Assembly: GCA_947178155.1 (NCBI GenBank)
Contig: CAMWXG010000011.1
Coordinates: forward strand, 1-34,765
Direction of reading: 5' to 3'
Origin: an uncultured Lachnoclostridium sp.
Lineage (GTDB): Bacteria > Bacillota > Clostridia > Lachnospirales > Lachnospiraceae
Length of the DNA stretch: 34,765 nucleotides
Shown: positions 353 to 27,900 of the stretch, one piece after another
How the letters are laid out: the number at the start of each line of letters is the position of its first letter
Position numbering within the stretch: position 1 is the first letter of the stretch
Position numbers and translations under genes: made by a program
Notes under the pieces: generated by a model
The model's input: only the letters and a program-made list of their open reading frames with translations
Told to the model about the DNA's origin: nothing
Databases searched by the model: none

Positions 353-1732
353 TTATCCACGCTTAAGAAGTTTTTGTTCCAACTCATCAACATCTGATTG
401 AGAAGTTCCTCTTTGTTGAAAGTTGTTAAATTGGTTTTTATTTTGTGGTTTTGCAGTAGCTTTTTGAGCAGTTTTATTTTTTTTCTGTTCAGCTTTATTT
501 TTGGCATAGAGTTCATCTGCCTTTTTAACATCTTGTAATGTATGTACATCTTTTTTGTGCCAGTTGTCAAGTATGCCATCTGCATATTTAAAATCAGCTT
601 TCTGCAATTTTAACATAGTACGGCTGCATGCATCAAGTATAACAGATAAATCCATATTCCATTCATTCATCCATTTATGTGTGAACTGCTTTTCGATAAC
701 TGCAAGAGGGCGTCCAAGTGCAAATGCCTTGGATATTGATGTATGTGCAGAATTATAACTAACTGATACAGATTTCGCTTCTTCTGGTGTTTTTACATTT
801 TGCTCGTCCCATGATATAGCCACAGCCTGAATATAATTTACATTAGTTTTTCCAAGTGAGATACAATATTCATATAAATGTAGTAATAAATCAACTGAAA
901 AATTAAGGTTATCATACAAATATGAAATAAGCTGAATTTCTTTAGAGCTTAAAGGGCGGTTAAGGTATTTTTCTATAACACGGCATATCCAGTTGAATTC
1001 TGTATTGTTGGCGAGCTGTTGTGCCTGTTCTTTAGTTATATTAATTTCTATGTATGCTCCGTTTTTTTTCTCTGTTTGATTATTGTCAGAAACAGATGAA
1101 TCAGCAGGAGCATCTGTTGCAGCAACTATATTATTAGAGTTTTCTGTTTCTTCTATACTAGTTGTATTGTTAGTTTGATTTGAATTGTTCTTATTTACAA
1201 CAGGCTTTTTTGGTGTATTCAAATTATTGTTTTCAGAAGTGCTATTTTTTAATGTATTCAAATCATTATTAGTATAATTGTCATTTTTTGGTATGTCTGT
1301 ATTACTTTTGGCAGTAGCATTATTTTGAGTGTATGCATCGCTTTTTGATATATTTGAAGTATTGTGTTCATAAGTGCTATTTTGCGATAGTGGTAAATTA
1401 TTAAGATTCTTGGCAGCGTTTTTAGAAGCAGTACCGGGATTTAGCAGTTCAACTCCTGTCATCTGCCCGTTTTGGGAATTTCTTGATATATATATAAGAT
1501 TATTTTTTTCCCAATATTTAAGCGCACGTATAATATCATTTTCAGTATTATCCATCATATCAGCCAGTGCAGAAACTGATATGTTTGTATCGCCAGACTG
1601 TATACATTTGCATAGGAAGAGGTATACTTTGACATAGCTTCCGTTTGCTGCAATCATATAATTATCAATAAATGTATTAAAGATATATGTTACAGAAGGC
1701 ATACAGCTTGAGCATTTTAATAACGTATCCAT
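353..1732 (-). CDS. DnaD-domain replication initiation protein with Asn-rich linker
   Basis: 459 residues; the ATG at 1732 follows a strong AAAAGGAGGAAATT. Residues about 15-95 form a winged-helix-like N-terminus (VYLFLCKCI, then a helix-turn-helix-like stretch). Residues about 105-225 are a low-complexity linker rich in Asn, Ser and Thr. Two tandem DnaD/DnaB_2-type helical domains follow at about 245-318 and 333-402; the second carries the family's YxxGILxxWHKK-type motif (YADGILDNWHKK). The tail to 459 is Lys/Gln rich. DnaD proteins bind and remodel DNA and help load helicase at origins or restart sites. It lies upstream of the DnaC-like gene and downstream of murC on the same strand. The unusually long Asn-rich linker is the odd feature; the domain call is secure. 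Confidence 0.88.
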   Translation of the reverse strand: MDTLLKCSSCMPSVTYIFNTFIDNYMIAANGSYVKVYLFLCKCIQSGDTNISVSALADMMDNTENDIIRALKYWEKNNLIYISRNSQNGQMTGVELLNPGTASKNAAKNLNNLPLSQNSTYEHNTSNISKSDAYTQNNATAKSNTDIPKNDNYTNNDLNTLKNSTSENNNLNTPKKPVVNKNNSNQTNNTTSIEETENSNNIVAATDAPADSSVSDNNQTEKKNGAYIEINITKEQAQQLANNTEFNWICRVIEKYLNRPLSSKEIQLISYLYDNLNFSVDLLLHLYEYCISLGKTNVNYIQAVAISWDEQNVKTPEEAKSVSVSYNSAHTSISKAFALGRPLAVIEKQFTHKWMNEWNMDLSVILDACSRTMLKLQKADFKYADGILDNWHKKDVHTLQDVKKADELYAKNKAEQKKNKTAQKATAKPQNKNQFNNFQQRGTSQSDVDELEQKLLKRG

Positions 1733-1840: not shown

Positions 1841-2006
1841 ACTAGTACAACCCGATTTAATTAACCATACCTTTTGCTGGTCTGCTTTTCCGATAGCACA
1901 GGCGTAAAATCCTCAACGTAGCCCGCTACGCCTACGTTTTTACACCTGCACTCTCAAAAAAGCATACTCACCAAAAGATAAGGTAATTAAATTGGATTAT
2001 ACTAGT
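1841..2006. repeat. Imperfect ~166-bp palindrome A (MITE-like or structured RNA)
   Basis: Begins with ACTAGTACAA and ends with TTATACTAGT. The two arms pair along most of the length: CGATTTAATTAACC against GGTAATTAAATTGG, CTTTTG against CAAAAG, GGCGTAAAA against TTTTTACACC, with a GC-rich centre around GTAGCCCGCTAC. By hand alignment most arm differences are C/T or A/G changes that give G-U pairs only in the minus-strand RNA, the direction of murC to dnaD transcription. It may act as a terminator or processing structure, or be a mobile palindromic element. No ORF lies inside. Confidence 0.7.
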
Positions 2007-2167
2007 ACAACGTTTCTTAGTCACTCATACACTTAGTACTTGCTATTTCCGCTATCGCTGCGTTGTCGTCAGTCAACAATGCCACCGCATTGCCTCCTTC
2101 CTCCGCCTTGCGCTGACAAAAATATCAAGCACTAAGTATATGGGGATTAAGGAAACGTTATACTAGT
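2001..2167. repeat. Imperfect ~167-bp palindrome B, sharing ACTAGT with palindrome A
   Basis: Starts at the ACTAGT that ends palindrome A and runs to the next ACTAGT at 2162-2167. Arms ACTAGTACAACGTTTC and GAAACGTTATACTAGT pair, as do ACTTAGTACTTG and CAAGCACTAAGT. The centre is GC-rich with an AATGC/GCATT stem at its tip. Apart from the ends its sequence is unrelated to palindrome A, yet both have the same asymmetric termini (ACTAGTAC left, ACTAGTAT on the reverse complement of the right) and nearly the same length. The outer ends of the pair extend to CTAACTAGTAYAAC. Confidence 0.7.
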
Positions 2168-2193: not shown

Positions 2194-3573
2194 CTATTTA
2201 AGTAAGTCCTCGCCTATATTTACTACATCGCCTGCGCCCATAGTGATAATTAAATCACCTGGCTGACATTTCTTAATAAGGAATTCTTCAATCTCTTTAA
2301 ATGAAGGAAAGTAATATGCTTCTTTATTAAGTTCTGCAAGTTCTTCTTTGAGATTAAGTGAGGATACGATTCCTGTATCAACTTCTCTTGAAGCGTATAT
2401 ATCTGTAAGCACAACGTTTTCAGCAATAGAAAGAGCATCAGCAAATTCATGAAGAAACTCAATAGTTCTTGAGTATGTATGTGGCTGAAATACACACCAG
2501 AGATGTTTGTGTGGATAATCGGCAGCAGTTGTAAGAGTTGCCTTTATCTCCGTTGGGTGATGGGCATAGTCATCTATAACAGTTACCCCGTTAAATGTAC
2601 CTTTTAATTCAAAACGTCTCCCTGTTCCACCAAATGAATTAAGTCCTTTGGCTATTATATCATCAGGAATGTTGTAAAATTTGGCAATAGCAGCTACAGC
2701 AAGTGCATTTTCTATGTTATGCCTGCCAGGAACATTGAGGACAATATGACAGCTTGTATGATTTTCTTTATCCTTTAAATCAAATGAGACACACATATTT
2801 TCATCAAAAGAGATATTTTCAGCTGTGTAATCAGCACTATTTTCAATGCCAAAGGTTACAATTTTACATTGAAGGTCAGATGTGATTTCATCAAGCCTAT
2901 CAGTAGTACTGTTTATAGCAAGTATACCATTTTCAGGTATCAGCCTGGCAAATTTTTTGAAAGAGCTACGTATATCTTCAAGGTCCTTAAAAAAATCAAG
3001 GTGGTCAGCATCAATATTTAAGATTATGCCTGCGGTAGGATAGAATTTCAAAAAGCTGTTTGTGTATTCACATGCTTCTGTGATAAAGTTGTCTGAATGA
3101 CCTACACGTATATTTCCGTTAATTGCATCAAGTATTCCACCTACAGATATAGTAGGGTCTTTATCTGCTGCAAGAAAAATATGTGAAAGCATGGAAGTAG
3201 CTGTGGTTTTCCCATGTGTGCCAGCCACAGCTATTGAGTTGACATAATTCTTCATTACCTGCCCAACCATTTCAGCGCGGTTTATCATAGGTATGCCAAG
3301 CTCCTTTGCGGCTATATATTCAGGGTTATCGGGATGTATAGCCGCAGTATATACTATAAAATCTATGTCTTTAGTTATATTTGAAGCATTTTGTCCATAT
3401 ATTATATGGACACCCAGTGATGATAGATGTTTTGTTATTTTACTTTCTGTCTTATCTGAGCCATATACGGTAAAACCATATTCATGAAAGAGTTGTGCGA
3501 AACCGCTCATGCTTATTCCGCCAATGCCGATAAAATATGCTTTACATGGTTTTTTCAGATCAATATGATACAT
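2194..3573 (-). CDS. murC: UDP-N-acetylmuramate--L-alanine ligase MurC
   Basis: 459 residues, the normal family length. It adds L-alanine to UDP-MurNAc using ATP, the first amino-acid step of peptidoglycan stem-peptide synthesis in the cytoplasm. Visible features are the N-terminal Rossmann glycine motif (GIGGISMSG, about residues 16-24), the Mur-ligase ATP loop GTHGKTT (118-124), the central EACEYTNSFL stretch and the C-terminal domain with DDYAHHPTE. The ATG start has only a weak ribosome binding site (GGACGGTG). The gene stops just after palindrome B on the minus strand and may be co-transcribed with the replication genes downstream. Confidence 0.97.
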   Translation of the reverse strand: MYHIDLKKPCKAYFIGIGGISMSGFAQLFHEYGFTVYGSDKTESKITKHLSSLGVHIIYGQNASNITKDIDFIVYTAAIHPDNPEYIAAKELGIPMINRAEMVGQVMKNYVNSIAVAGTHGKTTATSMLSHIFLAADKDPTISVGGILDAINGNIRVGHSDNFITEACEYTNSFLKFYPTAGIILNIDADHLDFFKDLEDIRSSFKKFARLIPENGILAINSTTDRLDEITSDLQCKIVTFGIENSADYTAENISFDENMCVSFDLKDKENHTSCHIVLNVPGRHNIENALAVAAIAKFYNIPDDIIAKGLNSFGGTGRRFELKGTFNGVTVIDDYAHHPTEIKATLTTAADYPHKHLWCVFQPHTYSRTIEFLHEFADALSIAENVVLTDIYASREVDTGIVSSLNLKEELAELNKEAYYFPSFKEIEEFLIKKCQPGDLIITMGAGDVVNIGEDLLK

Positions 3574-27868: not shown

Positions 27869-27900
27869 TTTTATTTTTTAATAGAATTTTCAAACACGCT

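Follow-up and report, generated by a model that had tools for sequence, protein, structure and literature searches.

The two adjacent palindromes A and B, which lie side by side in the genome of an uncultured Lachnoclostridium, are best explained as non-autonomous MITEs with the ends and target of the IS630 family (Tc1/mariner) and with a strand-biased fold under selection. We put the probability of this reading at roughly 85%, a figure that applies jointly to the whole explanation, including dependence on IS630 for movement in the manner of the pneumococcal repeat RUP. The pair was found in a window of 34,765 nucleotides (the whole stretch of DNA that was analysed, contig CAMWXG010000011.1), held by a MAG that we call G000.

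A first-pass annotation of the window had described two adjacent palindromes, and both could be delimited from CTAG to CTAG: element A occupies positions 1842-2005 (164 bp, core type I) and element B positions 2002-2166 (165 bp, core type II). They are near-perfect palindromes flanked upstream by murC (Mur ligase; 2194-3573, minus strand) and downstream by a DnaD/DnaB-like replication initiation gene (PF07261; DnaD/DnaB_2 domain; 353-1732, minus strand). The CTAG at 2002-2005 is common to both, one element having been inserted in the end CTAG of the other, and CTAG-sharing tandems of this kind recur at other loci (L028, L056, L154, L158, L209 and L319). The terminal inverted repeats of A are CTAGTACAACCCGATTTAATTAACCA on the left (1842-1867, plus strand) and, read on the minus strand, CTAGTATAATCCAATTTAATTACCTT on the right (1980-2005). 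The interiors had been called unrelated, which holds for the arms but not for the elements as a whole, as A and B fall in one superfamily with two core types. The conserved tip of the type I core in A (1911-1937, minus strand) is ACGTAGGCGTAGCGGGCTACGTTGAGG, common to Lachnospiraceae genomes with unrelated arms, and that of the type II core in B (2060-2108, minus strand) is AAGGCGGAGGAAGGAGGCAATGCGGTGGCATTGTTGACTGACGACAACGC.

In both elements the well-folding strand, hereafter X, is the minus strand. Comparison of the two strands as RNA gave -86.1 versus -56.4 kcal/mol for A and -79.3 versus -58.2 kcal/mol for B (minus versus plus), a minus-strand advantage of 30 and 21 kcal/mol, respectively, with z scores of -13.9 and -11.4 and none of 200 shuffles folding as well. 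The arm differences had been said to favour this strand by about a dozen to one; read on the minus strand, they do so in A (10 G-U-type versus 1 A-C-type) and more weakly in B (8 versus 5).

Both elements are members of a multicopy family. Within G000, A has three more copies that are 98% identical to it over 164-167 bp, with others down to ~73%, and B has three more at 99% identity; relatives carry hundreds of element copies. Further subfamilies (C, D, E and one ending AGCGTGTTTGAAAATT) have unrelated arms and nearly equal lengths. A covariance-model search for relatives, which the annotation had suggested, recovered full-length homologues in 26 of 99 related genomes with model R1 (built from B/C/D) and in 29 of 99 with model R2 (built from A/E). 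A pattern scan for the type I core gave matches in Blautia wexlerae, Coprococcus catus, Fusicatenibacter, Dorea, [Eubacterium] cellulosolvens and a large number of further Lachnospiraceae records. At 163-168 bp, with inverted ends, no coding capacity and many copies per genome, the elements have the features by which MITEs are defined, and a mobile palindromic family, named by the annotation as its alternative, is what these copies represent, with an IS630-type transposase as the probable mobiliser. No Rfam family scored above its gathering threshold, the sub-threshold matches being to unrelated hairpin families, and no existing description of this Lachnospiraceae family was found in the open-access literature.

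Several other features of the family were seen along the way. The AGCGTGTTTGAAAATT subfamily is a CTAG-bounded hairpin of 165-166 bp with a one-strand preference and is abundant in G000, with this end at 27885-27899 of the window and at 34 other sites in the MAG, and also at L142 and L109. Among 2.9 million viral contigs the core motif hardly occurs (1 and 0 matches), yet it is common in host chromosomes. In the centre of the elements at L132, L146, L147 and L148, a second repeat of ~50 nt, consisting of a hairpin and the tail GGACCGAAGCGGAGCGTAGA, sits within the core as an insertion; it occurs in several elements and in both orientations, and resembles a REP-type repeat.

CTAG stood at both ends of 108 of 123 extracted copies, whose lengths were mostly 164-166, and the flanks showed a weak A-CTAG-T preference. 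Where elements had inserted into coding sequence (L116, L126, L129 and L166), the interrupted reading frames close with exactly one CTAG; at L115 the frame test favoured zero retained CTAG, but two unrelated genes are joined there. Target-site duplication is present, with duplication of TA and of CTAG indistinguishable here. A DNA-level search of relatives for empty sites, using the joined flanks, gave no spanning match. Related hairpins at L018, L105, L107, L108, L149, L152 and L077 (G068) end in sequences like TTAGGAACTG or CTAAGGACTCGTC and have flanks centred on TA, not CTAG; G068 has a type II-like core, and 33 matches to IS630 transposases were counted in it.

The ends connect the elements to IS630. 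In insertion sequences (ISs) of this family from the same genus and family, the terminal repeats coincide with the outermost ~24-34 nt of the elements. The case for A is an IS of 1391 bp in genome G023 (L435:1254-2644), whose transposase gene is intact, with a product of 435 aa (NF033545, 204 bits), and whose ends, CTAGTATAATCCAATTTAATTAG and TTAGTATAATCCAATTTAATTACC, are the arms of subfamily A: the left repeat of A is nearly the same as these ends, the counterpart of its right repeat is TTAGTATAATCCAATTTAATTACCTT, and another subfamily A copy matched the IS end at 26 of 26 nt by BLAST. Other IS630s (L411, L412, L413, L415 and L416) carry the ends of other subfamilies, matching at 20-23 of 24 nt. 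Across seven IS630s, BLAST matches to the elements stop at 14-34 nt from the ends, and the core is therefore not IS-derived. Origin of the elements by internal deletion of an IS630 was rejected on the same ground, the interior having no IS match beyond 34 nt. The IS630 family has the same terminal repeats and the same CTAG/TA target as the elements, from which it differs in size and content: the ISs found here are 1.26-1.39 kb long and encode a transposase, whereas the elements encode nothing and have a core that is not in the ISs. According to the title of Tenzen and Ohtsubo (1991), as listed in PMC2170065, IS630 prefers TA in CTAG.

Detection of the transposase across genomes was uneven. It was present in G007, G023 and, as a fragment (G000:C89) with the ends of another subfamily, in G000, and was not found in G013, G025, G026, G029 or G034. 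Its absence from element-rich genomes may be due to helpers that have died out or to gaps in the assemblies. A CTAG-anchored inverted-repeat search over 2.7 Mb of loci gave no autonomous versions, which surfaced only in IS630 loci outside that 2.7 Mb, and no recurrent neighbour gene that might be a hidden mobiliser lay beside the copies, where ordinary genes alone were found.

The asymmetry between strands, claimed from the pair in the window, is real and extends across the family. X folds better in 35 of 35 representatives (<80% identity), both as RNA and as ssDNA, and in 34 of 35 when the outer arms are taken alone. Among 15 representatives at <70% identity, arm differences were G-U-type in 93 cases and A-C-type in 42, including 29 versus 11 in the terminal 30 positions. 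Subfamilies with differing terminal repeats have in common a single folded core that the ISs lack and in which internal loops and spacing are conserved. In 50 non-redundant type I elements, 82.8% of structure pairs were Watson-Crick, 7.8% G-U and 2.8% A-C, in comparison with 24-30% Watson-Crick in slid controls, and 50 of 69 pairs showed at least three Watson-Crick types; these counts are flattered by an alignment that was fitted to the structure. Palindromes can also covary through DNA-level correction, with no selection on RNA. For both reasons the contrast between G-U and A-C is the better argument, and selection on the fold is its probable cause.

The asymmetry of a MITE could instead have arisen from strand-biased mutation (for example, deamination on one strand) or from DNA-level correction of the palindrome, with no selection on the fold. 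We regard this as unlikely. In its favour, private mutations of single copies, which are near neutral, lean slightly to G-U (51 versus 40 to A-C) while not departing from parity, and ssDNA energies prefer the same strand as RNA energies. Set against this, the bias is stronger in diverged lineages than among private mutations (93:42 versus 51:40), a gap of borderline strength, internal loops and spacing are conserved across subfamilies, and pairs covary with several Watson-Crick types.

The annotation had read the asymmetry as selection for an RNA structure in the murC-dnaD transcript, be it a regulator, a stabiliser or a processing site, selected in place. X is indeed the sense strand of both adjoining genes and folds very stably. 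However, the same elements, some of them near-identical, stand at many unrelated loci, 25 congener murC/dnaD loci lack the pair (a few perhaps cut by contig ends), and private mutations are near neutral. Orientation, too, is random, an outcome that the annotation had itself named as telling against its proposal: relative to replication, X lay on the leading-sense strand in 62 of 137 intact copies and on the other in 75, and a gene-based test gave 23 copies against and 15 along transcription, no clear preference. Selection within this transcript is therefore very improbable. In a model-scored set of 69 copies (L338-L397) that includes more degraded ones, X was antisense to genes in 47, and a strand bias relative to replication was present (47/69) that is absent in intact copies; since the intact copies lack it, we do not read this bias as an insertion preference, and the antisense excess possibly reflects purging of sense copies.

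Movement by other machinery is likewise very improbable. One such rival is single-strand movement by an HUH transposase (Y1, RAYT), as in REP/REPIN-like elements. This would account for a one-strand fold, and the better folding of one strand also as ssDNA and the tetranucleotide at the hairpin foot agree with such a mode. Yet Y1 transposases are absent from G000 and from the element-rich genomes G007, G013, G025, G026 and G029 and present in several genomes that have no elements, intact copies show no leading/lagging bias, and the ends match IS630 repeats instead. Equally remote is mobility of the hairpin RNA through reverse transcription, which by inference would directly account for selection on the X-strand RNA fold but is contradicted by the exact ends, the CTAG target and the IS630 terminal repeats, and no reverse transcriptase was found in G060 and G025. 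As mobilisers, RAYT/Y1 and reverse transcriptase were both rejected, their presence not being consistent across element-bearing genomes.

We return to IS630-dependent MITEs. The outer ~24-34 bp are terminal inverted repeats of IS630-family insertion sequences, and in the mechanism that we propose an IS630 transposase acting in trans would cut the element and paste it into the TA of a CTAG, duplicating TA or CTAG. Between these repeats lies a conserved hairpin-forming core of two types, foreign to IS630 elements, and the full length forms one irregular hairpin with pairing probably kept by compensatory change and, where the arms differ, mostly by G-U on one fixed strand. Selection would then act on persistence or spread of the element through a single-stranded form, most likely RNA rather than ssDNA, because inserted copies decay near-neutrally while lineages keep the fold; it seems to bear on the single-stranded fold of the moving element and not on host transcripts. 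The arm differences may also prevent a perfect, unstable DNA palindrome. A more speculative extension, which we consider possible though doubtful, is that the core acts as a functional module, of RNA or ssDNA, which has joined with many different IS630 terminal repeats. Its single-stranded fold would then be needed for the element to spread or to be tolerated, for instance because it binds the transposase or a host factor, or because it shields transcripts of the host.

The nearest known system is RUP (repeat unit of pneumococcus), a 107-bp element proposed to be moved by IS630-Spn1 (PMC2229807, PMC3049150). Like the A/B family, RUP is non-autonomous, has IS630 terminal repeats and a TA target, and its ends pair in a long hairpin. 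In contrast, RUP is one streptococcal sequence family, whereas the A/B superfamily, at 163-168 bp, has many terminal repeats around a common folded core and is set apart by its fixed-strand G-U asymmetry. ERIC and YPAL (RU-1, RU-2) of enterobacteria, at 127 and ~167 bp, are likewise long, palindromic, MITE-like and folded over their whole length (PMC2267715, PMC2759123); they belong to other hosts and are single sequence families in those papers, and we draw the likeness with no claim of sequence relation. REP/REPIN elements with RAYT are also high-copy, non-autonomous palindromes, but the A/B elements are much longer and differ in mobiliser, ends and target.

These results assign a probable mobiliser to a repeat family that is abundant in gut Lachnospiraceae, Blautia and Coprococcus among them, with ends and a target that can be used for annotation. 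The A/B superfamily is also a case in which the folded core is conserved while the terminal repeats around it differ, and its fixed-strand G-U bias provides a handle on the old question of why many bacterial MITEs form long hairpins.
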